The notes under the pieces are model-generated. The model did no database searches, had not been told where the DNA came from, and saw nothing but the letters and a program-made list of their open reading frames with translations. The position numbers were made by a program, and so were the translations under genes. Positions 31,823-54,676 of a DNA stretch of 55,271 nucleotides are shown here, piece after piece (the first letter of the stretch is position 1; each line of letters begins with the position of its first letter). The DNA comes from a virus, in IMG/VR virus record IMGVR_UViG_3300046804_000671, positions 1-55,271 of that record; one strand, given 5' to 3'.

Positions 31823-31899
31823 TGGTCGGAGTAGCAGGATTCGAACCTACGACCCTCTGCTCCCAAAGCAGATGCTCTACCAAGCTGAGCTACACTCCG
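31823..31899 (-). tRNA. tRNA-Pro (TGG)
   Basis: A full cloverleaf is visible: 7-bp acceptor (CGGAGTG with TACTCCG, one G-U), D-arm GAGC, anticodon loop TTTGGGA with anticodon TGG, T-loop TTCGAAT, discriminator A and an encoded CCA. Confidence 0.95.
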
Positions 31900-31912
31900 T
31901 GCCATTTAGTCT

Positions 31913-33820
31913 TTAAGTGAGGTCCACGACCTCGCATACTCCTGCGGAACACGCAAGGTCTTGCGAACCTGTCGTTCTGTCTCCCTGTTCAAACTTCCCA
32001 AGCTCTCTCCAATCAATAGCCGTAGGCATAGAACTGAGAAGCTTCTCGTAAGTCTCCTTATCGCATTCCTCATAGGGGGCCTGTCTGTATGAGTGGTCTG
32101 AGTGAGGCAGGAACGAGATGCCTGACACTTCATCGAAGTGCTTCCAGACCCACGCACCAACCTCAACCCATTCATGTTCCTTCACCGTCACAGTGATTGA
32201 CGGCTTGTGTTCGCACCAATGACGCTGAATCTTGAGCCAAAGTTCAAGCTGCTCGATGGCACTGAGATCGTTCCGCGTGATGCTTCCTTCCGGAGCCTTG
32301 ATCGGGAAGGAGAACACGGCGGTCGCCTCAGGTTTCATCACATCATCTTCAACCGGGATATTAGCCAGCGACATAAATGTAGTAATTGGGTCCTTCTTGT
32401 CCCCGCGAACGCGCCGAATATAATAAGGGCTGTGACGTGCATGAATACCACTAGCACTATCAACAAGCTGGCTAACCGTACCAGAAGGCTTGACGCAAGT
32501 GACGGCAGTCGATTGATTGATGCCAAGCTTCTCCGAAAGCTTCTTGTTAACAAAGACAGCATGATCTCTCCACGCCTCAAGATGTTCAGCAGGAGCGTCA
32601 TACACAAACTTGCTATCAAGGATGCCAGTCAGCGAGACTCCAAGCAGCCGCTCTTCCTCAGTGTTCTTCTTCCAGATACGACGAAGATAACGGAAGTCAG
32701 TCATGGTTGACTGGATTGTGCCAAGAATAGCGGCGACCTCGACCTTACGCATCATATCGTTATGGTCATCACCGGCACGGCACACCAGTTCAGTCAGGTT
32801 ACAGAACTGGTAAGGACGCAGGATGATCTCGGAGCAGGGGTTGGTTCCCCACTCATGACCACCCTCGCGACGACCGTTCTTTACAGCCTGCTTCTCGGAA
32901 GCTACTCTGTTAAAAATACCACGCTCTCCTGACTTGCTTTGGTAAAGAGCCAGCCATTCCTGCATGAAACTCCCAGTGTCGGGTCTTTCGGTATAACACA
33001 CAGAGTTATTTGCGAGAGCGCGTTGGGGTTCTGTTTCCCACCAAGCTCCTGACTTTGCTTGGCGCATTCTGTCATCGCTAAGGTTAGAAAGAGAAATAAG
33101 AGCAGAACGACGAACCCCGCCCACGACCACAACTTCCGCAACCTTGCAAGCAAGGTCATGGCACTCGATACTTGTGAGTTTTCTTCCCTTTGCATTCTGG
33201 AACAACCTTACTGCAAACTTAAACAAATCAACAAGAGGCTCAGGACCTGAGGCACGACCTCCGAAAGTCTTGAGGCGAGCGCCAGCAGGACGTACCTTAG
33301 ACACATCCCACTTGGGAATGCGACCACCGTACAGCATTGATACAAGTTCGCGGAACGCCTTTGCCCAGCCTTCCTTGCTATCCTCAACTACAATTGTAGT
33401 AGATGATTCATCGAACTGGTCCGAGATCACAGGGAGTTCGTTAACAAATTGACGCTCAACGCTAAACCCAACCCCAGTGCCACACATAAGGATATATAGC
33501 AACTCGTCAAACGCTCGCTGATCATCAATAGGAAGGTAGCTACAATTATACCCAGCCACATTGCAACGCTCCAGAGCAGGGCCAGCCGTCATCATGGCGC
33601 GCATAGACGGCATAACATCAAGGTTGATGATCGATGTGCGAATCTTGTTGAGGGTCTTGGCATCAAAGGAGAAGTCAAAGTTCTCCTTCAGATGATTTGT
33701 AAAGAAACTAATATATCTATCTACAGTCTCCTCCCATGTCTCTCTGCGTTGCTTATCATCAAGATATCGTGCATATCTTGATGCATGGATGAAAGACTGG
33801 TAATCTGTAGGTAGTGACAT
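31913..33820 (-). CDS. Ribonucleoside-triphosphate reductase, adenosylcobalamin-dependent (class II)
   Basis: The 635-residue enzyme reduces ribonucleotides to supply dNTPs. It matches monomeric class II reductases: redox Cys 93 in YNCSY, active-site NPCSE with Cys 329 and Glu 331, and the C-terminal CSAGVC shuttle (Cys 624, Cys 629). B12 must come from the host. The start is 33820, with GGAG 6-7 bases upstream; the ATG at 33841 lies in the promoter -10 and is excluded. Confidence 0.93.
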   Translation of the reverse strand: MSLPTDYQSFIHASRYARYLDDKQRRETWEETVDRYISFFTNHLKENFDFSFDAKTLNKIRTSIINLDVMPSMRAMMTAGPALERCNVAGYNCSYLPIDDQRAFDELLYILMCGTGVGFSVERQFVNELPVISDQFDESSTTIVVEDSKEGWAKAFRELVSMLYGGRIPKWDVSKVRPAGARLKTFGGRASGPEPLVDLFKFAVRLFQNAKGRKLTSIECHDLACKVAEVVVVGGVRRSALISLSNLSDDRMRQAKSGAWWETEPQRALANNSVCYTERPDTGSFMQEWLALYQSKSGERGIFNRVASEKQAVKNGRREGGHEWGTNPCSEIILRPYQFCNLTELVCRAGDDHNDMMRKVEVAAILGTIQSTMTDFRYLRRIWKKNTEEERLLGVSLTGILDSKFVYDAPAEHLEAWRDHAVFVNKKLSEKLGINQSTAVTCVKPSGTVSQLVDSASGIHARHSPYYIRRVRGDKKDPITTFMSLANIPVEDDVMKPEATAVFSFPIKAPEGSITRNDLSAIEQLELWLKIQRHWCEHKPSITVTVKEHEWVEVGAWVWKHFDEVSGISFLPHSDHSYRQAPYEECDKETYEKLLSSMPTAIDWRELGKFEQGDRTTGSQDLACSAGVCEVVDLT

Positions 33821-33839
33821 ATTGATCTCCAAAACCCCC

Positions 33840-33867
33840 ATTATACTAGATGTAGCTTAAATGTCAA
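33840..33867 (-). promoter_or_regulatory. Consensus sigma70 promoter for the reductase
   Basis: On the minus strand a perfect -35 TTGACA (33862-33867) and a perfect -10 TATAAT (33840-33845) are separated by 16 bases. Transcription would start near 33833, just before the reductase ATG. The -35 overlaps the dUTPase stop. Confidence 0.88.
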
Positions 33868-34322
33868 GCCACATCGAATGCGCGTGTGCCAGTTGATCCG
33901 AACCCACCAGCGCCACGGTCAGTTTCGTCTAGCAGACCATCAACAAACTGGACCCGTTCGTATCTGGCGATTACCATCTGAGCGATGCGGTCGCCCTGAT
34001 TGATGGGGAACGGCTCGGTGCCAAAGTTCATGAGGATGACGCTGATCTCACCACGGTAGTCAGAGTCGATGGTGCCGGGGCTGTTCAGGACCATGACGCC
34101 CTTCTTGGCAGCAAGGCCTGAGCGTGACCGAATCTGGGCCTCAAGACCCACAGGAAGGCCAAGCTTGACGCCAGTAGGAACCATGACGCGCTGCCCCGGA
34201 AGCAGCACGATAACGTCCCTAGAGGCAGACACAAGGTCATACCCAGCAGACCCAGCGGTGGCACGCTCCGGGTTGGGAGGGAGCCATCCGTCTCGCTCAA
34301 TCTTCTCAATCTTTGCAAACAT
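33864..34322 (-). CDS. dut: dUTP diphosphatase (trimeric dUTPase)
   Basis: The 152-residue protein has all five dUTPase motifs: [30 protein letters not shown] and the C-terminal [10 protein letters not shown]. It converts dUTP to dUMP, limiting uracil in DNA and feeding dTMP synthesis. It lies upstream of the reductase on the same strand, though the reductase also has its own promoter. Confidence 0.95.
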
Positions 34323-34334
34323 ATCTCACCTATC

Positions 34335-34408
34335 TGGAGCGGGCAAAGGGATTCGAACCCTTCTCTTCAGCTTGGAAGGCTGAGGCACAGCCCCTATACC
34401 ATGCCCGC
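34335..34408 (-). tRNA. tRNA-Gly (TCC)
   Basis: Cloverleaf with acceptor GCGGGCA/TGCCCGC, anticodon loop CTTCCAA (anticodon TCC), T-loop TTCGAAT, and encoded TCCA 3' end. It sits between dUTPase and a membrane microprotein. Confidence 0.94.
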
Positions 34409-34412
34409 TGTG

Positions 34413-34529
34413 TTACATACAGAACCGAATGTGTGACAGATAGTAGAGGCCACCAATCACACACATTGCAAACAGGATGGCCGCACTAAAGATAGACCAA
34501 GCCACAATCTTTGTGATTAAGTCTTTCAT
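34413..34529 (-). CDS. 38-residue membrane microprotein
   Basis: A short frame starting at 34529, after AGGGG, encodes MKDLITKIVAW followed by one hydrophobic segment (about 8-31) and a short basic end. It would be a single-pass inner-membrane peptide. Its role is unknown. Confidence 0.55.
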   Translation of the reverse strand: MKDLITKIVAWSIFSAAILFAMCVIGGLYYLSHIRFCM

Positions 34530-34531
34530 AT

Positions 34532-34771
34532 CTACCCCTGAAAGTTAGGACGAGTAGCCAGACCACAATACCCATGAGTCTCTGACTCAATGTAGGGAGG
34601 CGGGTCAGTGCGGTAGTCACGACCATCCTCAATGATCATCATGTCATGCTTAGGATTCCAGTCAGGATTCAACTCAGGCTTCCACCTCCACATGGCGCAA
34701 CCAGAGCCAAGGCAAACATCCTTGTGAACTGGGCACGAATATGATTTAGACCTCATATCGATGATATACAT
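34532..34771 (-). CDS. Unknown Cys-containing phage protein
   Basis: The 79-residue product starts at ATG 34771, overlapping the upstream stop in TGATG, with AAGGGG before it. Four Cys (SCPVHKDVCLGSGC and GYCG) could bind metal. Function unknown. Confidence 0.55.
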   Translation of the reverse strand: MYIIDMRSKSYSCPVHKDVCLGSGCAMWRWKPELNPDWNPKHDMMIIEDGRDYRTDPPPYIESETHGYCGLATRPNFQG

Positions 34772-35103
34772 CACTTGTTCCCCTTCATGATATGCTCAGG
34801 CATCTGCATGAAACCCTTCATGGCTTCCTTCCAGATGCCCTCGATGTACGGAAGTTCCTTGTCCTGCATTACCTGAGCCATAGCCATGACGGCCTGCCTG
34901 TGGTGGGCAAGGAGAAGGTCTGTCGTGCCACGCAGGGTCTTGAGGTAGGTGTCGACGGGCTGGCCGCCCTTCTTCTCCTGCTCCTTGTAGGCGCACAGTT
35001 GCTTCCAAGTTAGGCCATCAGGCACATACTCGGACGGCTCGACGGCATACACCAGATTGCTAAGCCGCTCTACTTCCTTCTCAAGTTCTTCAATCTTGCT
35101 CAT
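34771..35103 (-). CDS. Unknown helical phage protein
   Basis: This 110-residue protein has an N-terminal heptad-like helix (EELEKEVERLSNL) and further helices to the C-terminus. It is coupled to the following gene by TGATG. No family recognised. Confidence 0.6.
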   Translation of the reverse strand: MSKIEELEKEVERLSNLVYAVEPSEYVPDGLTWKQLCAYKEQEKKGGQPVDTYLKTLRGTTDLLLAHHRQAVMAMAQVMQDKELPYIEGIWKEAMKGFMQMPEHIMKGNK

Positions 35104-35117
35104 GCTTCACCTGTAGT

Positions 35118-35207
35118 TGGCGGAAGGGGCGCGATTCGAACGCGCGGTGCAGTTTCCCACACGCTAGTTTTCAAGACTAGAGCCTTAAACCACTCGGCCA
35201 CCCTTCC
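35118..35207 (-). tRNA. tRNA-Ser (TGA)
   Basis: A 90-nt type II tRNA: acceptor GGAAGGG/CCCTTCC, anticodon loop CTTGAAA (anticodon TGA), a long variable arm, T-loop TTCGAAT and encoded GCCA. Its 5' base overlaps the stop codon of the next gene. Confidence 0.94.
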
Positions 35208-35452
35208 TAGTTGCAAATGAATCCGTTGCCAATCTTGGCGCAGGACTTACGCTCACCCAGAAAATACACACCACCAAAGTTAGTGATGCTCTCTCCGGTT
35301 GTATAAGTACTCGTCGTGGTTCCATCAGTGGTCACGCCACTCGGGAATGTCGGTGAGTAGATCGGATACTCCTGCCCTCTAACTTCCCTGAATGTAATCA
35401 GTGAAATCATAAGGACAATAAACCCGAACACAAGCCAGCTAAACCAGTTCAT
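35207..35452 (-). CDS. Small exported or membrane-anchored protein
   Basis: This 81-residue protein starts at 35452 (MNWFSWLVFGFIV) with one hydrophobic segment at about 2-22. A Thr-rich extracytoplasmic part and two Cys near the C-terminus follow. The segment could be a signal peptide or anchor. The stop TAG shares one base with tRNA-Ser. Ribosome-binding site is weak. Confidence 0.5.
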   Translation of the reverse strand: MNWFSWLVFGFIVLMISLITFREVRGQEYPIYSPTFPSGVTTDGTTTSTYTTGESITNFGGVYFLGERKSCAKIGNGFICN

Positions 35453-35624
35453 GTGTCTTCTTCTTTCTGTAGAGCCAAGTGGTATGCAGGGCACGCACAC
35501 TTGTATGTGTATAGAAAGGTTCAGGCATGTACATCGGAGGCATGTACTGGTTCAACAGTACTGCCTCGATGAACTTGGCTGGAGTGATGTCCTTAAGACG
35601 CACTGAACTGGTCCTTGTAGACAT
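35439..35624 (-). CDS. Unknown small phage protein
   Basis: The 61-residue product begins MSTRTSSVRLKDITPAKFIEAV and has a Met/Pro-rich centre (YMPPMYMPEPFY). Start is uncertain: ATG 35624 has GGAGG only two bases before it, and TTG 35636 has none. It overlaps both neighbours. Confidence 0.45.
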   Translation of the reverse strand: MSTRTSSVRLKDITPAKFIEAVLLNQYMPPMYMPEPFYTHTSVRALHTTWLYRKKKTHELV

Positions 35625-35811
35625 GACCTCCAGCAATCAGAAGCATCTGGAAGACGTTGCCATGTGACTCGGAGTTGATGGAGTACGCCATCTCACCATC
35701 CTTTGTCAAGGCAATAACAACGAACTCCTCGTATTCTTCCTTCAGCCTGTCGATAACACTGGAGGGAATCTTGCCAGACTTCTTGCTCATCTTAACAACG
35801 TTGTCGCTCAC
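35593..35811 (-). CDS. Conserved small phage protein (MSDNVV type)
   Basis: Start GTG 35811 with GGAGGG 4-5 bases before it gives a 72-residue protein beginning MSDNVVKMSKKSGK, a common phage small-protein opening. Helix ERLKEEYEEF-like and a beta hairpin follow. The longer frame from 35838 lies within the upstream gene. Confidence 0.6.
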   Translation of the reverse strand: MSDNVVKMSKKSGKIPSSVIDRLKEEYEEFVVIALTKDGEMAYSINSESHGNVFQMLLIAGGHVYKDQFSAS

Positions 35812-35812
35812 A

Positions 35813-36052
35813 TCACCCTCCAAGTTTCTTTTGTACAAGCCAAGCTATCTTATCTAGGCACAGCTTGCCAAGTCTTTCCTTTGTGTATCCAGAATAACCA
35901 TAATCATCACTGGTGTCTATAGTATGAGGATACACATTAATTCTCCAACCTTCTTGCTTAGAATATGATACATCTACAAGATCATAATCTTTTGAGGTTT
36001 TTACGAGATTAAGAAGTTTGTCAAGCTGTTCAGTGTCGTCTTTACTAAGCAT
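35813..36052 (-). CDS. Unknown acidic phage protein
   Basis: The 79-residue protein starts at ATG 36052, GGAG lying 6-7 bases before it. The N-terminus is helical and acidic, and the rest has YTKERLGKLCLDKIAW. It lies between tRNA-Arg and the MSDNVV-type gene. Function unknown. Confidence 0.55.
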   Translation of the reverse strand: MLSKDDTEQLDKLLNLVKTSKDYDLVDVSYSKQEGWRINVYPHTIDTSDDYGYSGYTKERLGKLCLDKIAWLVQKKLGG

Positions 36053-36068
36053 GTCAGACTCCAGCAAT

Positions 36069-36145
36069 TGGCGTGCCCGACTGGACTTGAACCAGTAACC
36101 CTCAGCTTAGAAGGCTGATGCTCTTTCCAGTTGAGCTACGGGCAC
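36069..36145 (-). tRNA. tRNA-Arg (TCT)
   Basis: Acceptor GTGCCCG/CGGGCAC, D-arm GCTC/GAGC, anticodon loop CTTCTAA (anticodon TCT), T-loop TTCAAGT and encoded GCCA. Confidence 0.94.
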
Positions 36146-36153
36146 TAGACAAT

Positions 36154-36228
36154 TGGTGCTGGGTGAGGGATTCGAACCCCCAACCTTGGCCTTACAAAGA
36201 CCCTGCACTACCGTTGTGCTAACCCAGC
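36154..36228 (-). tRNA. tRNA-Thr (TGT)
   Basis: Acceptor GCTGGGT/ACCCAGC is perfect, D-arm GCAC/GTGC, anticodon loop TTTGTAA (anticodon TGT), T-loop TTCGAAT and encoded ACCA. The anticodon stem has a G-A mismatch at its outer pair. The stop of the upstream DUF3310 gene lies in its 5' acceptor. Confidence 0.88.
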
Positions 36229-38639: not shown

Positions 38640-39387
38640 AGCTTCCTGCTTTCGACTCGCTGACATCTTCAGCTTCCTTTCTGCTGTTACAAAGCTTTAT
38701 AGCACGCTTGTACTTTGGATGCAATACTGCATACTTGGTTTCTGTACTCCACATATCCTCCGCTGTACAGAGGTAGTTCTCTGTGGCAATGGTATGGAAT
38801 GCAACTCTACGCTTGATGTACTCATCTCTAGTCTCAAAAGACCAGAGAGTAATTGGAATCTTTACTATAGGAGCCTTAGGATAGTTGTACTCACCAACCT
38901 TCCTGCGGTTCCAGTCCCTGACTATAGCATAAATCTCAAGTCCGTCAACAGTCACGCCCTTCTCTTTTTCAACAAGCCAAGCGTAACAATTGAGTTGACG
39001 TTCCCATTCCTTCTTGCCTGCCATGACAGAGTATGCCGAGGTGAACTTGTAGTCACCAATGACATTCCTGCCATCGCTAGTGCGCTGCATGTCGATGCCG
39101 CCGCTGATGGTGATGTCTCCAACACGGGAGAATACTCGCTCTTCAGCACGCTCGGTGCCGTCCGTGTGTGTCTCTGCAATAAGATGCAGCGCAGATCCGA
39201 CGAGCCTCCAGATTTCTTCCGACAAGTCTGTGGTGATTTCATCTGCATGCTTCTCTTTCAGCTTGACAATCCTAGGACTATCTATAAGCTGCGTGATGGA
39301 CATATCAGACTTTCCACGGCTATAAGAAAACCGCTTCACGGCGTTCATAAGAGACTGTGGCAAGTCATACTTGTTGGTGATCGGCAT
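38494..39387 (-). CDS. PD-(D/E)XK exonuclease (Cas4/RecB-like)
   Basis: The 297-residue protein has GSALHLIAE, GGIDMQ, the DYK active-site motif in VIGDYKFTSAY, QLNCYAWLVE, and a late Cys set (first Cys about 261, then YCSVSQFCSQY). It would resect DNA for ERF. Start at 39387 shares a CATG with the divergent RusA start; earlier in-frame starts (39507, GTG 39534) lie inside RusA. Its Cys cluster is encoded in the overlap with ERF. Confidence 0.75.
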   Translation of the reverse strand: MPITNKYDLPQSLMNAVKRFSYSRGKSDMSITQLIDSPRIVKLKEKHADEITTDLSEEIWRLVGSALHLIAETHTDGTERAEERVFSRVGDITISGGIDMQRTSDGRNVIGDYKFTSAYSVMAGKKEWERQLNCYAWLVEKEKGVTVDGLEIYAIVRDWNRRKVGEYNYPKAPIVKIPITLWSFETRDEYIKRRVAFHTIATENYLCTAEDMWSTETKYAVLHPKYKRAIKLCNSRKEAEDVSESKAGSYVQLRHGRNVRCEGNYCSVSQFCSQYQASISGDPQRHEGDGDGGEDWP

Positions 39388-39871
39388 GTCATACACTCTC
39401 ACGAAAAAGGACGGACTGTCAACAGTCTCGTTTGAAATTCTTGGAGAGCCTGCATCGAAGGCAAACAGCAGGCGTCTCGTATACTTCGGTAAGCGACCAG
39501 CCTTCATCAAGTCCAACAAGGCAAGATCATACACTGAATCGTTCAGGAGTCAATGTCCAAATCTGGACATTCCAATATCCGGGGATGTAATAGTTACAAT
39601 AAATATCTGGTACGCATCACGCCGCCCGGACTTGGATGAATCAATTATCCTAGATGCAATGCAAGGTCTTATCTATGTCAACGACAGACAAGTCAAAGTC
39701 AAGCACATCTACTGGCATCTCGACAAGGACAACCCGAGATCGCAGATTTGCGTACAGGAAATTTGTTCAGTCACTCCTGATAGGAAGCGTCGAGGACATG
39801 AAGAAGAACAAGAAGATGGAAATAGAAGCGGTAAAGTGGTTGGCAGGAGAAAGCGCGGGAGAGATACTTGA
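39386..39871 (+). CDS. rusA: RusA-like Holliday junction resolvase
   Basis: The 161-residue protein has FEILGEPASKANSRRL and the acidic core RPDLDESIILDAMQGLIYVND, the active-site pattern of RusA. The C-terminal 45 residues are charged and probably disordered. ATG 39386 follows GGTGAT. It belongs with the ERF/nuclease cassette, though on the opposite strand. Confidence 0.8.
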   Translation: MSYTLTKKDGLSTVSFEILGEPASKANSRRLVYFGKRPAFIKSNKARSYTESFRSQCPNLDIPISGDVIVTINIWYASRRPDLDESIILDAMQGLIYVNDRQVKVKHIYWHLDKDNPRSQICVQEICSVTPDRKRRGHEEEQEDGNRSGKVVGRRKRGRDT

Positions 39872-40010: not shown

Positions 40011-40224
40011 CAAGAACTCATACCCGCCTAGAGTTCCCACTAGAGATATGATCAAGCACGGCATGAAGCACTGGGATAAGGTTAAGGGTCTATCTACAGA
40101 AGTTAATATGCTACAGGCATGGATCGCCATGCATGACTACTGGATGAGGGTCGAGCAGTTCAGAGTCAAGGAACAAGAACTTGCGGAACTGGACGGTCGT
40201 AGACCCCCATATGTAGTACGTTGA
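40003..40224 (+). CDS. Unknown small helical phage protein
   Basis: This 73-residue protein starts at 40003 (MSDKNSYPPRVPTRDM) with GAGG about 9 bases before it. The body is helical (VNMLQAWIAMHDYWMRVEQF) and the end is PPYVVR. Its last codons overlap a promoter -35. Function unknown. Confidence 0.55.
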   Translation: MSDKNSYPPRVPTRDMIKHGMKHWDKVKGLSTEVNMLQAWIAMHDYWMRVEQFRVKEQELAELDGRRPPYVVR

Positions 40225-40249
40225 TTCCTAGCGTCAAATCAGTTACAAT
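40221..40249 (+). promoter_or_regulatory. Candidate sigma70 promoter for the non-coding region
   Basis: TTGATT (40221-40226) and TACAAT (40244-40249) are separated by 17 bases, matching consensus at 4 and 5 of 6. Transcription would start near 40256, at the base of the first predicted stem of the structured region. Confidence 0.5.
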
Positions 40250-40255
40250 GTACTC

Positions 40256-40620
40256 TTGTTGTTGAGGGTGGTTGGCTTGCTTCCCTCATTAGATTGATTG
40301 CAGGCCCCCGGTCTTGGGTGTTCTCCCGTGCCAAGAACATCAAACAACAGCGGCTCTGGTGTGCCATTCCATCCGCGACCTATACGATGCCGGGATATCC
40401 CGGTCATGGTGACGAACAGATATTCATTCCATCAGGTGTGACTGCCTGACTATTGAGTGTTTGCCTACAGCCTAAAAAATGTAGGGGTGGTTGCCAGTTT
40501 GGTAGACTGGCAAGGACGTAAGTCCGAAGGATAACAAGTACCCGGAGCATTGCTCTCCCCCTAGTCAGGGGCTTCTGGTTGGTCCCAATGACCATATCGG
40601 AAGGTGGGAAAGGCGATAGC
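40256..40620 (+). ncRNA. Candidate large structured RNA
   Basis: About 365 bases without a credible gene hold many stems. P1 TGTTGTT/AACAACA (40257-40263/40343-40349) encloses GAGGG/CCCTC (40264-40268/40283-40287) and TCTTGG/CCAAGA (40312-40317/40331-40336). Then come a palindrome CCGGGATATCCCGG (40390-40403), a 6-bp hairpin (40464-40485), an 8-bp stem TTGCCAGT/ACTGGCAA (40491-40513), an abutting GGAC-GTAA-GTCC GNRA hairpin (40514-40525) and CCCCT-AGTC-AGGGG (40558-40571). It may be a free RNA or a long leader of the methyltransferase. No known class recognised. Confidence 0.55.
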
Positions 40621-40637
40621 TATGTCTGGAGAGTTGC

Positions 40638-41279
40638 ATGGCAAGAATTCTAGTAGCCTGTGAGATAAGCGGGAAAGTCAGGGATGCGTTCAGGGTTGCA
40701 GGCCACGATGCTTGGTCATGCGATATTGCTGCCATTCAAGATAATGAAGCAGCTAAACAAAAGTTCCCTGAGTTTCATCACGTTTGTGATGCTTCTTCTA
40801 TCCTAGACGATGGATGGGATGCGCTGATTGCTTTCCCTCCATGTACTTATTTGTCTGTGTCTGGGATGCACTGGACGGCAAGAGGACTGAGGGATTCGAA
40901 GCTTACGGATCAGGCGCTCGATCTTGTTAAGACGTTTATGTTTGCTGATATAAAGTATATAGCAATCGAGAATCCAGTTGGTGTGATTGGCACAAGGATC
41001 AGGAAGCCAGACCAAACTATCCAACCGTATATGTTTGGCCACGATGCATCTAAAAGAACTTGCCTATGGCTTAAGAATTTACCAAAGCTTAAAGCAACTT
41101 CTTTTGTCCAGCCTAGGATAGTGAAGAAAGGTTCAACTGATCTAAAGAGATGGAGCAATCAGACTGACTCAGGCCAAAACAAACTAGGACCCAGCGAAAG
41201 CAGGGCGGCAAAAAGGGCTGAGACATACGATGGAATTGCTGCCGCAATGGCGGATCAATGGGGTTGTGTGATAAGATAA
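40638..41279 (+). CDS. DNA cytosine methyltransferase-like protein
   Basis: This 213-residue protein starts with a nucleotide-binding-like MARILVACEISGKVRDAF. It has FPPCTY (PPC at 67-69), matching the catalytic motif of C5-cytosine methyltransferases, and an ENP at 111-113 like motif VI. It is about half the usual length and lacks a clear target-recognition domain. It could modify phage DNA against restriction. Confidence 0.7.
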   Translation: MARILVACEISGKVRDAFRVAGHDAWSCDIAAIQDNEAAKQKFPEFHHVCDASSILDDGWDALIAFPPCTYLSVSGMHWTARGLRDSKLTDQALDLVKTFMFADIKYIAIENPVGVIGTRIRKPDQTIQPYMFGHDASKRTCLWLKNLPKLKATSFVQPRIVKKGSTDLKRWSNQTDSGQNKLGPSESRAAKRAETYDGIAAAMADQWGCVIR

Positions 41280-41475: not shown

Positions 41476-41654
41476 ACCGTAGAAGCTTGTTCAGGATGAT
41501 CCCTGTTGCTCCGGTCGTTGGCGCATCAGCTATTATGTCAAGCGTCAAGCCGAAGCTTGATGTTAAGCTGCCTCAGGTTGGAGAGATGAACTGGGGTCAG
41601 ACTATCAACAAGGCCATCAGGGATATTCAGGAAGAGATCAACAAGAGGGGATGA
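41472..41654 (+). CDS. Small protein with Tat-like signal
   Basis: The 60-residue product begins MNRRSLFRMIPVAPVVGASA, with a twin-arginine pair, a hydrophobic stretch and AxA-like end, resembling a Tat signal peptide. A short helical remainder follows. Export in the host is possible; purpose is unknown. Overlap with the primase gene indicates coupling. Confidence 0.55.
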   Translation: MNRRSLFRMIPVAPVVGASAIMSSVKPKLDVKLPQVGEMNWGQTINKAIRDIQEEINKRG

Positions 41655-43366
41655 TGAATTCTATTTCATCCCTGTTCAGGAGATACGGAAACAAGATACA
41701 GTTCAAGACTGTATGCCCGTTCTGTTCCGAACTAAGGAAGCCATCGAATAGGAAAGCTGCCTGCATGTCAGTGAGACAGGAGGCAGATCACTGGGTTTAC
41801 AATTGCTGGCACTGCTCAGCAAAGGGAAGAGAGGAAAAAATGGAAGCTGCTGCTGTCGTTGCACCGGTCAAGACTTCAAGCCTTGAGGACAAGCATTATG
41901 ATTTCTTTAAGTCTCGCGGCATCACACGCGATACTGTTGATAACTATTCTGTTACTGCATCCACTCAATGGATTCGGAGCGTTAACGGCAATACTGATTG
42001 CGTTGGCTTTGCATATCGCAACAATGGGGTACCTTATGCATATAAGTGGAGAGCTGTCGAAGCTAAGGGCTTCACCTGCTCTGCTGCTCCTCAGCACTTC
42101 TATCTTCATGATCGAGTGTCTGTTGGCAGTGATGTTGTGATCTGCGAGGGAGAGATCGACGCCCTGTCTCTCCGTCAAGCTGGTATCGAGAACGCCATCT
42201 CTGTTCCCAATGGCGCACCTATGAAGGTGTCAGAGGGTAAGGTTTCCCCTGAGGAAGACCGCAAGTTTGCCTACGTCTGGAACAGCCGGAACGTACTGAA
42301 CGCAGCGAAGAAGGTATACCTTGCCATCGACAACGACGATCCGGGTATGGCGCTTGGCGAGGAACTGAGCCGTCGCATCGGGCGCGCCAAGTGCTGGCTG
42401 GTGAAGTGGCCGGAAGGCTGCAAGGATGCCAACGATGTGCTGGTGAAGCACGGTCCTGAAGCCATTAAGGCTGCGCTGGAAGCGTCTGAACCGTGGCCGG
42501 TGGCTGGCCTGTTCGAAGCCAAGCACTACACCGAGAAGGTGGGAACCCTTTGGGAGAAGGGCAACGCCAAGGGTATGTCGGCTGGTTACGATGAGGTCGA
42601 TGAGATTTATTCTGTCGTGCCGGGACAGATGACAATCGTTACTGGCATCCCGTCTTCGGGTAAGTCAGAGTTCATCGATCAGGTTATGGTTAACCTTGCC
42701 CTGAAGAACGATCTCAAGTTTGCTATCTGTTCGTTTGAGAATCCGCCTGAAGCGCACATCGTCAAGCTGATTGAGAAGAAGGTTGGCAAGCCATTCTTCG
42801 CTGGACCCAAGCCTCGCATGACTGAACTGGAAAGAGACGGCGCATTGCAGTGGGTGAACAACCACTTCTCATTCATTGATACCAGTGATGGTGAACCGTC
42901 AACAATCGACTCGATCCTTGACAGAGCAAGTTCTGCTGTCATGCGTATGGGTATTCGTGGTCTGATCATCGACCCGTATAACTTCATCGAGCGTGACTTC
43001 AAGAACAGCGAGACTGATTACATCAGCGCCATGCTTACCAAGGTTCGTAACTGGGCGCGTGGTAACGAGGCGCATGTCTGGTTTGTTGCACACCCTGCCA
43101 AGATGATGCGTACTGATGGTAAGGTTCCCGTTCCGGGTGGCTACGACATCAGCGGATCGGCTGCTTGGTTCGCCAAGGCTGACTTCGGAATGACCGTTGA
43201 CCGACAGAAGGGGCCGCCTGAAGTCCACATCTGGAAGTGCCGGTTCAAGTGGGCGGGGAAGATGGGTAATGCCGTACTTAATTATGATCCTGCATCAGGC
43301 CGCTACATGTCTCCTAAGGATGTTCCGATTGAGGACTTCGGAAGCATCGATGAAGACGGCTTCTAA
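41651..43366 (+). CDS. Primase-helicase (T7 gp4/Twinkle-like)
   Basis: This 571-residue protein has a zinc ribbon (C22, C25, C52, C55), a Toprim domain (EGEID at 166-170, D227 and D229 in IDNDDPG) and a DnaB-like helicase with Walker A GIPSSGKS (332-339). It would prime and unwind at the phage fork. M1 (41651) and M2 (41654) are both possible. No phage DNA polymerase is visible nearby. Confidence 0.9.
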   Translation: MMNSISSLFRRYGNKIQFKTVCPFCSELRKPSNRKAACMSVRQEADHWVYNCWHCSAKGREEKMEAAAVVAPVKTSSLEDKHYDFFKSRGITRDTVDNYSVTASTQWIRSVNGNTDCVGFAYRNNGVPYAYKWRAVEAKGFTCSAAPQHFYLHDRVSVGSDVVICEGEIDALSLRQAGIENAISVPNGAPMKVSEGKVSPEEDRKFAYVWNSRNVLNAAKKVYLAIDNDDPGMALGEELSRRIGRAKCWLVKWPEGCKDANDVLVKHGPEAIKAALEASEPWPVAGLFEAKHYTEKVGTLWEKGNAKGMSAGYDEVDEIYSVVPGQMTIVTGIPSSGKSEFIDQVMVNLALKNDLKFAICSFENPPEAHIVKLIEKKVGKPFFAGPKPRMTELERDGALQWVNNHFSFIDTSDGEPSTIDSILDRASSAVMRMGIRGLIIDPYNFIERDFKNSETDYISAMLTKVRNWARGNEAHVWFVAHPAKMMRTDGKVPVPGGYDISGSAAWFAKADFGMTVDRQKGPPEVHIWKCRFKWAGKMGNAVLNYDPASGRYMSPKDVPIEDFGSIDEDGF

Positions 43367-43938: not shown

Positions 43939-44177
43939 AGCTTATCCATCACCAGCCTAGTGATCAGCCTGCGTGCCTGATCCCTATATCCAGCACCAAG
44001 TTCCTCATCATTTGCCATGTCAGTGATGAGGTTCCTTGCTTCAAGGAAAAACTCGTAATCTTTGTACGATATAACCTTTTGTGTAAGTTGTGCCTGATTC
44101 GCTGAGGTTAATGTGAATGTTCCTGAATTAGGAACGCTTATAGTATTTTGATACGGCTTGACGGCAGTCATCTTCAT
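43935..44177 (-). CDS. Unknown phage protein
   Basis: The 80-residue product starts at ATG 44177, overlapping the upstream stop as ATGA. The N-terminal half is Thr/Ser-rich and beta-like (SVPNSGTFTLTSANQAQ) and the rest is helical (YEFFLEARNLITDM). Function unknown. Confidence 0.55.
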   Translation of the reverse strand: MKMTAVKPYQNTISVPNSGTFTLTSANQAQLTQKVISYKDYEFFLEARNLITDMANDEELGAGYRDQARRLITRLVMDKL

Positions 44178-44710
44178 GCTTCCTTTCTTTGGTTGTTGTG
44201 GTCCCATTCCCATGACCATACTCCCTTCTTCGCGGCATCAACCAATCGCCTAATCTTTTCGTTCTCCATGTACTTGGCGAACGCTTCGCTTTCAGCTTCG
44301 TATCTGCTGAATGACTTCAGCATGTACATACATGACGTATGATCCTTGTTTAGCAAGGAAGCAATATCGGGAAACGACCTCTTGTTAAGAGTTCGCTCAA
44401 GATATGTGAAGATGGAACGCGCAACAGCCATGCTGTGGTACCTCTTGTGGGGCACGCGGAGATCATCAAGATTAAATCCGCTAGCCTCATTGATTGACTT
44501 TAGTATGTGCAAAGTAAGCTTGTAGTCTGCCCTGTCTTTCCATCTAGACATGAAGCTATCAGGATGGTGAGCAGTTCCCACAAACTTCTTGAGATTGATC
44601 ATCTTAGACATATCAATCTCATTGATTGACATCTTCTTATAAGAAGATCCAATATAATCTTGCTGGGTCTTTGAAAGCTTTCTAACAAGCACAGGATCAA
44701 GTGGCTCCAT
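44174..44710 (-). CDS. DnaA domain IV-like DNA-binding protein
   Basis: The 178-residue protein has at about 75-145 the layout of the DnaA C-terminal domain: LDDLRVPHKRYHSMAVARSI, a helical bridge, FPDIASLLNKDHTSCMYML, where KDHTS matches the GRDHTT signature. It lacks the AAA+ part of DnaA. It could bind DnaA-box-like sites in phage or host. Start 44710 has AAGGAG 7 bases before it. Confidence 0.65.
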   Translation of the reverse strand: MEPLDPVLVRKLSKTQQDYIGSSYKKMSINEIDMSKMINLKKFVGTAHHPDSFMSRWKDRADYKLTLHILKSINEASGFNLDDLRVPHKRYHSMAVARSIFTYLERTLNKRSFPDIASLLNKDHTSCMYMLKSFSRYEAESEAFAKYMENEKIRRLVDAAKKGVWSWEWDHNNQRKEA

Positions 44711-45155
44711 CGTGCTTCTCCTTCCACTTCTTTGCTCTATTGAGCGCATGTTTTGTTACGGGCCAAGACGGCCTATCTAAGTAGGCCAGTGCAATGTGCC
44801 TCAAATAATGAAGCTCTGCAAACTTATCGTTTCCTCTTTTCCTCCAGTAATCATACCTCATGTATGACCTTTTTATTTTTACCTCAATCCCAAAAGGAAA
44901 GTCCCTCCAATATGGAACGTGATCAGAAAGCCCCATCCCGTTTTCCATACTATCCAAATACAAAACATCTATATTGTATTTTTTCATTATGATGTCTGTT
45001 TCTTCCTTGGCCGCTGCCATATACTTATTAAGTCTCTTCCTTATTCCATCATGATATTCAGAAGATCGGTATAAATATACTCTGTATATATTGTACCAAT
45101 TAAAAGATTTTTTTACAGAATCAAGAGAGTCTATCTCTTTGTAAGCGTCTTTCAT
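44697..45155 (-). CDS. Unknown phage protein
   Basis: The 152-residue protein starts at 45155 with AGGAGA upstream. It is rich in Tyr, Lys and Arg with WYNIYRVYLYRSSEYHDGI. It overlaps the DnaA-like gene by 14 bases. No family recognised. Confidence 0.6.
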   Translation of the reverse strand: MKDAYKEIDSLDSVKKSFNWYNIYRVYLYRSSEYHDGIRKRLNKYMAAAKEETDIIMKKYNIDVLYLDSMENGMGLSDHVPYWRDFPFGIEVKIKRSYMRYDYWRKRGNDKFAELHYLRHIALAYLDRPSWPVTKHALNRAKKWKEKHDGAT

Positions 45156-52675: not shown

Positions 52676-53017
52676 CTACTCCTTTACAGGGGTTGGTTGA
52701 ATGTACGGGGTGAACGAGGTCCACTTCTTGACTCGCCACCCATGATCCTTGACCCAAAACGGAGCGCCGCCGCCGCTTCGCTTGGATTGACAGAAGGAGA
52801 ACATTGGACTGCCTCCCTTGCTGCCCTTGACGCCGAGGAACTCACGTAGAGCCTTGGCGCAGGGATCACCATACATTTCAGGGGTTTGCAGCAGAGACAC
52901 CACCATCGCGGCACCTCCCCTGCGATATGCGTGCAGGACCGTCAGCAGCGTCTTGTCATAGGCTTTGCCCATGTCAAGGCTGTAGATGTACCTGATCGCG
53001 TTAGGAACATCGCTCAT
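52676..53017 (-). CDS. Unknown phage protein
   Basis: The 113-residue protein starts at ATG 53017 (GGGA 9 bases upstream), following the stop at 53019. It has RYIYSLDMGKAYDKTLLTVL and a Gly/Ser-rich part (GSKGGSPMFSFCQSK). The GTG at 53047 is less likely. Function unknown. Confidence 0.55.
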   Translation of the reverse strand: MSDVPNAIRYIYSLDMGKAYDKTLLTVLHAYRRGGAAMVVSLLQTPEMYGDPCAKALREFLGVKGSKGGSPMFSFCQSKRSGGGAPFWVKDHGWRVKKWTSFTPYIQPTPVKE

Positions 53018-53018
53018 T

Positions 53019-53138
53019 TTAGCAATCCCAATAACAGGCGAAGTCACAGTCCACGAAGAAGAACAGGCTGATGTTGTGATCCACGTTCAGATTGGCAGCA
53101 TCATTCAGCCTGCGCCACACACTGGTATAAACCATCAT
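53019..53138 (-). CDS. 39-residue reading frame
   Basis: A frame from 53138 (or 53135) encodes MMVYTSVWRRLNDAANLNVD and a Phe/Cys-rich end (FFFVDCDFACYWDC). GGCGGTGAG lies upstream. It is the first gene of this minus-strand run and is tightly followed by the next. Coding is plausible, not proven. Confidence 0.4.
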   Translation of the reverse strand: MMVYTSVWRRLNDAANLNVDHNISLFFFVDCDFACYWDC

Positions 53139-53162
53139 GTCTCACCGCCTTCCAACTTGTGC

Positions 53163-53179
53163 TTCCCAACCGTTGGGAA
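53163..53179. repeat. Palindrome TTCCCAACcGTTGGGAA
   Basis: A perfect 8-1-8 palindrome in the leader of the minus-strand run starting at 53138. It is one of about seven dispersed copies. Confidence 0.8.
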
Positions 53180-53250
53180 GCTTCTCAACCGGAGCCTCGC
53201 TGCATTTGCGAGTTGCATTTCGTCCGATTGTTCTGTATTATCTCATGTTT

Positions 53251-53308
53251 TATGGTCTTTGTATATATGTCCAGGAAAAAACCTGGACATTTTGACCATA
53301 TATTTTTT
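53251..53308 (+). promoter_or_regulatory. Compound inverted repeat before the small terminase gene
   Basis: TATGGTC (53251-53257) pairs with GACCATA (53294-53300), enclosing ATGTCCAGG/CCTGGACAT (53267-53275 with 53282-53290) around an A6 loop. A T8 run follows on the plus strand at 53302-53309. It could be an intrinsic terminator or attenuator, an operator, or a packaging recognition site beside terS. Confidence 0.6.
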
Positions 53309-53343
53309 TTAACCTAGCGAACGCCTCGCTTTCAAGGTGCCAC

Positions 53344-53796
53344 ATGACCAAACACAAGATGACTATCAAGCAGGAAGACTTTGCAAGATTGGTAGGATAC
53401 GAGGGAGTATCCCAGATTGATGCCTACAGACAGGCATATAACCCAAAGACAAAGTCTCCCACTGCACTAGCCTCAATGGCATATAGATTGTCTATCCATC
53501 CCCTAGTGTCTCAGGCAATCACCAAGTACAGGGATCAGAGAGAACAGGACAAGAAGATTGATGCCGGTACGATTAGAGAACTCCTTCTGAATACCTTGAT
53601 TAGTAAGGTCAAGGAAGCCAAGACGGAATCCAATCAATTAAGGGCAGTGGAATTGCTGGGTAAGACGGAGGATATTGGATTGTTCAAGGAGAGAATTGAA
53701 ACAACGACAGTCAAGTCAAGCGATGATTTGGAAAAGGAATTGAGGGAAAAGTTACACAATCTATTTGGGAAGCCCAAGATTGTTGCAAGTAATTGA
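53344..53796 (+). CDS. Terminase small subunit
   Basis: The 150-residue protein has FARLVGYEGVSQIDAYRQAY, SPTALASMAYRLSIHPLVSQ and a helical C-terminus (LRAVELLGKTEDIGLF), matching the Terminase_2-like small subunits that bind the packaging site. AAGGTG precedes the ATG. The large subunit is not in this window. Confidence 0.8.
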   Translation: MTKHKMTIKQEDFARLVGYEGVSQIDAYRQAYNPKTKSPTALASMAYRLSIHPLVSQAITKYRDQREQDKKIDAGTIRELLLNTLISKVKEAKTESNQLRAVELLGKTEDIGLFKERIETTTVKSSDDLEKELREKLHNLFGKPKIVASN

Positions 53797-54015
53797 TTTG
53801 CCTAGAGATTAGGCAGATCGAGATTATTAGGATTTGTTTTTTATATCTGGTTTGATTGTGGTTGGTTAATGCCGGGAGATTGGGGGATTTTGGTAGGGGG
53901 ATTAGGATTTTGCAGGCAAACGATTTGATTTTTTTATAAAAACCACATCTCCAGGCCTTCCCAACCGTTGGGAAACTGCTATTGAGAATCATTCTCATTC
54001 CTGGACCTAGGCAAC
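53797..54015. other. Non-coding right-end segment
   Basis: No credible gene. It holds a TGCCTA/TAGGCA hairpin after terS, a G-rich stretch with three G3-5 runs (53874-53900), a perfect TTCCCAACcGTTGGGAA (53958-53974) and a TGAGAATCATTCTCA (53983-53997). Confidence 0.65.
53958..53997. repeat. Paired palindromes: TTCCCAAC type and Fur-box-like
   Basis: The two palindrome families sit 8 bases apart here, as they also do at 54844-54883 and 54905-54937. This repeated pairing suggests they work together. Confidence 0.8.
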
Positions 54016-54048
54016 AAAAAGCCCCCTAGACCTAAGCCTAGGGGGCTT
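54016..54048 (-). terminator. Intrinsic terminator for the 54053-54676 gene
   Basis: An 11-bp stem (54019-54029 with 54038-54048) is followed on the minus strand by TTTTT. It lies 4 bases past the stop codon of the minus-strand gene and may also stop plus-strand terS transcripts. Confidence 0.88.
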
Positions 54049-54052
54049 CCTG

Positions 54053-54676
54053 TTACTTCTTAAAGGTGATCACAACCGTGCCATGCTGGGCGCTGTAGAC
54101 CGCCTCGGCCTTCGCCTCGTGGGCCTGCCACAGCAGCAACTCGACAAGCTGGCTGTGACCGCCGGTTGCGGCGGGCGTTTCGGCCAGCGTGGCAATGTGG
54201 GGCCGGTTGTAGTTCATGACCTTGTCGAGCGCCGTTCCCGGCCCCTGTCCGCCCTTGCCCTTCGCCTTGGGCTTGTCAGACTTCTTTTCGGCGGCGTTCA
54301 CTGACTTAATCGATACGCTCGCGAGCGCCTCGCCCTTGCCTTCAATGTCAATCGCCTTGCGGGCGTTCGTGACATAGTTGGAAAGATACTTCTTTGCGCC
54401 CTTCTCATCCGTGCCGCGCTTCTCGGCGACCGCGTCCAGCAACGGGCGCATGGCAAGCTCGCGCTCGCGCCCCTCAACCGTGAGCTTGAAGATCGCCATG
54501 ATGGCGGCCGTAAGCCGCTCGCCGATCTTCGTATAGACGTCGAACGCGGTCGAGTGTTCCAAGAACACTGCGATGGCCGTATCCGACGCCGCCTTGATAG
54601 CAGCGGCACGGTCGACTGGCTTGGCATCCGCAACGGGGATGACCGGAGCAACCTTAGCCTTGATAACCTTTGCCAT
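54053..54676 (-). CDS. Unknown Ala/Lys-rich protein, GC-rich gene
   Basis: The 207-residue protein has an Ala/Val/Lys-rich N-terminus, a helical middle (about 25-120), a Lys/Gly-rich linker (KPKAKGKGGQGPG) and a short C-terminal domain. Its GC content is well above its neighbours, and it has its own terminator and an AGGAG 6 bases before the ATG. It may be a DNA-binding or moron-type gene of foreign origin. No family recognised. Confidence 0.6.
   Translation of the reverse strand: MAKVIKAKVAPVIPVADAKPVDRAAAIKAASDTAIAVFLEHSTAFDVYTKIGERLTAAIMAIFKLTVEGRERELAMRPLLDAVAEKRGTDEKGAKKYLSNYVTNARKAIDIEGKGEALASVSIKSVNAAEKKSDKPKAKGKGGQGPGTALDKVMNYNRPHIATLAETPAATGGHSQLVELLLWQAHEAKAEAVYSAQHGTVVITFKK

Follow-up and report, generated by a model that had tools for sequence, protein, structure and literature searches.

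A candidate structured RNA beside the replication genes of a phage, and RF02932-type RNAs in its relatives

Several large structured RNAs, among them GOLLD, ROOL and OLE, have functions that are unknown or debated, and some of them are phage-borne. Structures of these large, ornate RNAs have been described (PMC12286853). In some phages related to the one studied here, the RNA that Rfam names 'Betaproteobacteria-1' (RF02932) lies 5' of the primase gene. Here we set these systems beside the stretch at positions 40221-40637 of a 55,271-base phage sequence, one IMG/VR virus record, which as a whole is called the window below. A sequence-only reading had taken this stretch for a structured non-coding RNA of about 365 nt with its own promoter.

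RF02932-type RNAs beside the primase genes of related phages

We defined the phage clade for comparison by the primase/helicase gene of the window (41651-43366). RF02932 RNA is found 5' of the primase in L091 and L092 (87 bits), and a diverged form 5' of the primase in G009 falls short of the gathering cut-off at 39.8 bits (E 1e-7). R1, an extended covariance model of the RF02932-type group, finds such RNAs 5' of the primase in L259, L275, L282 and L283 as well (E 1e-19 to 1e-25). Promoter-like hexamers stand just 5' of the RNA in L091 (TTGCAT-N17-TATAAT) and L259 (TTGCAA-N17-TAATAT). RF02932-type RNAs adjoin primase/helicase genes and are GC-richer than their surroundings, with AT-rich DNA following. 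They lie at:

L091, 4627-4825: RF02932-type RNA
L259, 3482-3674: RF02932-type RNA
L282, 3517-3712: RF02932-type RNA
L110, 1171-1380: RF02932-type RNA (G009)
L113, 5772-5890, - strand: RF02932-type RNA
L116, 1222-1340, - strand: RF02932-type RNA
L117-L235: further loci with RF02932-type RNA
L354, 2501-2562 (OM049504.1, 11939-12000): RF02932-type RNA in the isolate Acidovorax phage AP1, in an unannotated stretch

A pattern derived from these RNAs matches at least 120 IMG/VR stretches, and our comparison covered 102 distinct phage sequences, 53 of them non-redundant. Of the 53, 43 show complementarity between the strand 5' of GAANGNCT and the upstream loop of the same sequence, where 4.5 would be expected from swapped pairs. 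A hairpin stem is complementary in 47/53 (cross 21%) and the NN/NN pair in 50/53 (cross 46%). Two pseudoknots are supported by covariation, one joining the loop of hairpin 2 to the strand after hairpin 3 and the other joining the loop of hairpin 3 to the strand after that. RF02932 is thus the core of a large group of pseudoknotted phage RNAs located by replication genes, far commoner in phages than the Rfam name implies. This wider group is a firmer discovery than the window RNA described below. The RNA of Acidovorax phage AP1 sits just 3' of the helicase and primase genes, and this phage could serve as an experimental system for the group. In L245 (3590-3970), a GC-rich gap 5' of the primase with CTACCGTGGG and hairpins resembles the RF02932-type RNA by eye and is missed by model R1.

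The gene-free stretch at 40221-40637 and its predicted fold

The studied stretch lies among recombination and replication genes of the window:

On the - strand: recombination block of exonuclease, Erf and a possible SSB
39371-39871, + strand: rusA, 5' of the studied stretch along with two small + strand ORFs
40638-41279, + strand: DNA methyltransferase gene (PHROG 757, PHROGs E 2.3e-56), with its ATG at 40638
41651-43366, + strand: DNA primase/helicase gene (PHROG 239, E 1.2e-84), with Toprim_2 and DnaB_C domains

The stretch lies in the replication module near the primase, with the methyltransferase and two small ORFs in between. The primase relatives L082-L089 (44-48% identity) keep the order exonuclease (-), rusA (+), primase (+), and at the syntenic position they have neither the methyltransferase nor the window RNA; AT-rich sequence stands in its place. 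Since the methyltransferase cassette is missing there, the region has been reworked. Inverted repeats of the ACTAGTTATAA type occur between rusA and primase in L083-L088. As AT-rich arrays they stand immediately 5' of the primase in L083 (4729-4860), L084, L085, L088 and L243 (3810-3900), where they are candidate replication origins. Elsewhere in the window, five tRNA genes (Pro, Gly, Ser, Arg and Thr; 31823-36228, - strand) are interspersed with genes that include ribonucleotide reductase, and a gene at 44174-44749 (- strand), whose product bears the C-terminal DNA-binding domain of DnaA (Bac_DnaA_C, E 1.6e-9), adjoins the replication module. This product might be a phage-encoded origin-binding protein.

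The letters of the claimed promoter are exactly as read, with TTGATT at 40221-40226, TACAAT at 40244-40249 and a spacer of 17. An 81-aa ORF immediately 5' ends in a stop codon that shares bases with the -35 hexamer. The match to consensus (9 of 12 positions) is no better than chance, as 2.4 kb hold 5 sites as good as this one and shuffled sequences hold 3.0 +/- 1.8. What follows the promoter-like site is a gene-free stretch of ~380-390 bases with a GC content of ~50%, ending at the methyltransferase start codon. That it is gene-free agrees with the shortness of its start-to-stop ORFs, at most 51 aa (+ strand) and 63 aa (- strand). Six-frame pieces of the stretch found no relatives when compared with 2.4 Mb of phage loci, and we saw in it no iterons, no AT-rich tract and no repeats of the kind that mark mobile elements. 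The terminator candidate is just CCCCTAGTCAGGGG followed by CTTCTGGTTG and is weak; 5' of the methyltransferase there is nothing stronger than the weak stem at 40558-40571. That the stretch makes a non-coding RNA with its own promoter therefore stays a proposal, given the chance-level promoter match, the want of a better terminator than this stem, the continuation into a start codon and the pairing of that gene's Shine-Dalgarno sequence in the last helix.

RNAfold predicts three domains for the + strand (pairing probabilities in brackets):

40221-40249, + strand: weak sigma-70-like promoter TTGATT-N17-TACAAT, by direct reading, with a predicted start near 40256
40257-40352, + strand: 5' domain, with P1 (40257-40264/40345-40352) around hairpins 40274-40306 and 40317-40341
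40353-40548, + strand: core domain, closed by the long-range helix GCUCUGG-U-GUGC / GUAC-CCGGAGC (0.99)
40390-40403, + strand: CCGGG-AUAU-CCCGG hairpin (1.0)
40417-40463, + strand: 10-bp helix CAGAUAUUCA/UGAGUGUUUG around UCAGGU/GCCUGA (0.99)
40464-40485, + strand: CCUACA/UGUAGG hairpin (0.96)
40491-40513, + strand: UUGCCAGUUU/AGACUGGCAA hairpin, the 8-bp stem of the sequence-only reading (0.88-0.93)
40514-40525, + strand: GGAC-GUAA-GUCC hairpin with a GNRA tetraloop, abutting the stem at 40491-40513 (0.95-1.0)
40552-40634, + strand: 3' domain, in which GCUCUCC (40552-40558) pairs with GGAGAGU (40628-40634) (0.94)
40628-40633, + strand: Shine-Dalgarno sequence GGAGAG of the methyltransferase, by direct reading, paired in the predicted fold

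Several of the elements that had been read by eye recur in this fold. The stem TTGCCAGTTT/AGACTGGCAA (40491-40513) is present and directly abuts GGAC-GTAA-GTCC (40514-40525), and so is the CCCCT-AGTC-AGGGG stem at 40558-40571. In the 5' domain, the two hairpins said to be enclosed by P1 are well defined (0.90-0.99), while P1 itself is weakly supported, with a mean pairing probability of 0.45-0.58. The 3' domain encloses CCCCU-AGUC-AGGGG and a hairpin at 40572-40603 (0.98). Its closing helix (40552-40558/40628-40634) would sequester the Shine-Dalgarno sequence, and the start codon of the methyltransferase follows 4 nt 3' of the latter.

The number of stems, which had been held to be unexpected by chance, is ordinary: helices of 4 bp or more number 16 in the stretch and average 17.1 +/- 1.9 over 200 dinucleotide shuffles. 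The fold is nevertheless significantly stable on the + strand. Its energy is -149.1 kcal/mol (z ~ -3.5, and -3.6 in a separate run), none of the 200 shuffles is as stable, and the - strand reaches a z of -1.5. It is also well defined, with 13 helices that reach a pairing probability of 0.9 or more; shuffles have 4.7 +/- 3.1 such helices, and 3 of the 200 attain 13. The signal is concentrated in the core (40353-40548; z -5.1, 0/300 shuffles), an optimistic value because the boundary was picked after folding. Taken alone, the 5' domain is not significant (z -1.5), and the 3' domain (40549-40637; z -1.7) is not unusual either. Across the genome, 382-nt windows (n=110) have a median z of ~ -1.0 and a 5th percentile of -3.5, so the studied stretch, near that percentile, is notable and not unique. 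Two - strand windows, 53001-53382 and 54001-54382, fold better than the studied stretch (z ~ -5); the former overlaps ORFs partly and the latter wholly.

Searches for relatives of the window RNA

That the RNA belongs to no recognised class fits the evidence, as no credible Rfam match appeared up to E 10 for a stretch whose + strand fold is significant. At gathering score, the 4227 Rfam families give five tRNAs in the whole window and nothing else. The single Rfam match to the stretch (E 7.4, to a flavivirus element) is a chance hit, and no tRNA or tmRNA is predicted there. A blastn search of the stretch against phages, plasmids and our collected loci returned chance-level matches only, the best of which (G037) lies inside a 565-aa ORF, and nhmmer and blastn across the collected phage loci found no homologue. 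Scanning IMG/VR for the exact patterns GGACGTAAGTCCGAAGGNTAA and GGTGGGAAAGGCGATAGC likewise gave no match.

We also searched with R2, a single-sequence covariance model of the core. It had no credible match in primase loci, methyltransferase loci (~160 viral loci bearing one or the other gene), 49 whole records of related viruses, 27 genome loci or 398 bacterial genomes, a set of records that may omit close relatives of the window genome; an empty genome search carries little weight unless a positive control accompanies it. One match, in L268 (E 0.067), was rejected, being a 26-nt hairpin that lacks the core.

An all-against-all comparison of the gene-free gaps 5' of related primases showed that the window shares nothing with them. 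Two other conserved gene-free sequences did emerge. One, ACTCCACACGATAGCAAGAGTTCAACCTGACTGCGTGGAATAAAAGGGTT..., lies 5' of the primase in two phages (L266 3480-3640 and L267 2540-2720; 77% identity over 168 nt) and has no Rfam match; the other lies immediately 5' of the primase in L277 (3745-3910) and L288 (3720-3890), with 78% identity over 176 nt.

The window RNA stands outside the RF02932-type group, and the genomic neighbourhood alone is common to both. There is no RF02932 match up to E 10, and with filters off R1 reaches at best 2.3 bits in the stretch, on the minus strand. The invariant GGYGGSGAAG-NNAG and GAANGNCTNNCGRGT, with their complementary NN/NN, are absent, as is the GAANGNCT element; the stretch has GGTGGGAAAGGC, in which one invariant G is changed. 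An nhmmer search with the extended group found nothing in the stretch. Some short strings do recur, namely AAACAACAGCGGC in the window and L113/L116, and GGTGGGAAAGGC in the window against GGTGGGGAAGGC in G009, but with so many sequences compared these are within the reach of chance. Together with the equivalent region and the promoter-like hexamers 5' of it, such strings are what would speak for a highly diverged RF02932-type RNA of the replication module. Against the empty Rfam search, the wrong-strand R1 score, the missing GAAG-NNAG and GAANGNCTNNCGRGT and the empty nhmmer search, we regard that descent as very improbable.

Competing explanations and comparison with known systems

Our leading but tentative reading is that the stretch encodes a structured phage non-coding RNA of the replication module, with the RNA itself as the main product. 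It draws on the stability of the + strand (0/200 shuffles; z -3.5 against -1.5 on the - strand), on the 13 well-defined helices, on the want of any ORF or protein remnant, and on the covarying RF02932-type RNA that relatives in the primase clade bear 5' of the primase, in L091 and L259 behind promoter-like hexamers. It also draws on the methyltransferase family elsewhere, in which many genes begin at, or overlap, the gene before them, so that the RNA does not routinely come with the gene. It is weakened by the lack of a homologue and hence of covariation, the chance-level promoter and the missing strong terminator, as well as by the 5th-percentile fold, the methyltransferase and two ORFs that precede the primase, and the AT-rich sequence in L082-L089. 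We infer that the stretch is transcribed, that the RNA is independent of the mRNA and that it is itself the functional product. Positions 40256-40637 would be transcribed from their own weak sigma-70-like promoter, by read-through from the rusA operon, or both, giving a structured RNA of perhaps ~325-380 nt. On either side of its compact core would stand the 5' domain and the 3' domain, the latter masking the Shine-Dalgarno sequence of the methyltransferase. The RNA would be the product, at a site between recombination genes and primase where some relatives have unrelated structured RNAs, and basal translation of the methyltransferase could come from read-through molecules with the 3' domain open.

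A cis-acting 5' leader of the methyltransferase fits nearly as well, because the RNA meets the start codon, with no clear terminator before it, and its last helix, spanning the entire Shine-Dalgarno sequence, pairs it with a probability of 0.94. Such a leader, controlled as a riboswitch, a thermosensor or by a protein, would open its 3' domain on a signal sensed by the upstream domains. However, no conserved structure was found 5' of homologous methyltransferase genes; many genes of this family begin at, or overlap, the gene before them, and the core model matches none of ~60 methyltransferase loci. A purine-rich Shine-Dalgarno sequence also pairs easily by chance, and the 3' domain by itself is of ordinary stability. 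On this evidence we consider a leader rather unlikely. We are similarly doubtful of a DNA-level element or plain spacer, be it the region of a replication origin or intergenic DNA close to the primase, whose foldability would be incidental. The adjoining replication module, the repeat-rich AT tracts between rusA and primase in L083-L088 and a foldability near the genome's 5th percentile are consistent with it, but the stretch has ~50% GC and neither iterons nor an AT-rich tract, its stability is strand-specific, and a compact phage genome would not usually leave 390 nt as unused spacer. That the stretch is what is left of a decayed gene or of an inserted element is the least credible explanation and very improbable: the region has been reworked, to judge from the syntenic L082-L089, yet six-frame fragments have no relatives and no repeats mark a mobile element.

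The best reading, not a proven one, is that the stretch encodes an orphan structured RNA of the phage, which either stands alone or leads the methyltransferase mRNA; it does not amount to a demonstrated new class. It is tempting to speculate further that the window RNA is the first of a new class of large structured RNAs in phages, replacing the pseudoknotted RF02932-type RNA of its relatives, and that the primase-adjacent region is a hotspot at which phages exchange structured RNAs that are analogous but not homologous and share a role in replication or host takeover; we think this unlikely. If real, the window RNA would be a ~380-nt orphan in a phage replication region, with no described relative and at a site where related phages have other structured RNAs, and it would make directly testable why phages retain structured RNA beside the primase.

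Among known systems, riboswitches and RNA thermometers resemble the window RNA in having a 3' helix that engages the Shine-Dalgarno sequence of the gene that follows. They differ in that the window RNA matches no known aptamer and is not conserved 5' of the family's other methyltransferases. RF02932 and its R1 extension likewise are structured RNAs of a phage replication module, 5' of the primase in L091, L259, L275, L282, L283 and G009 and with promoter-like hexamers in L091 and L259. However, the interlocking pseudoknots and the invariant GGYGGSGAAG / GAANGNCTNNCGRGT belong to RF02932 and are missing from the window RNA. Compared to GOLLD, ROOL and OLE, the window RNA is shorter and has no Rfam match; what it has in common with them is that all are large structured RNAs, some of them phage-borne.
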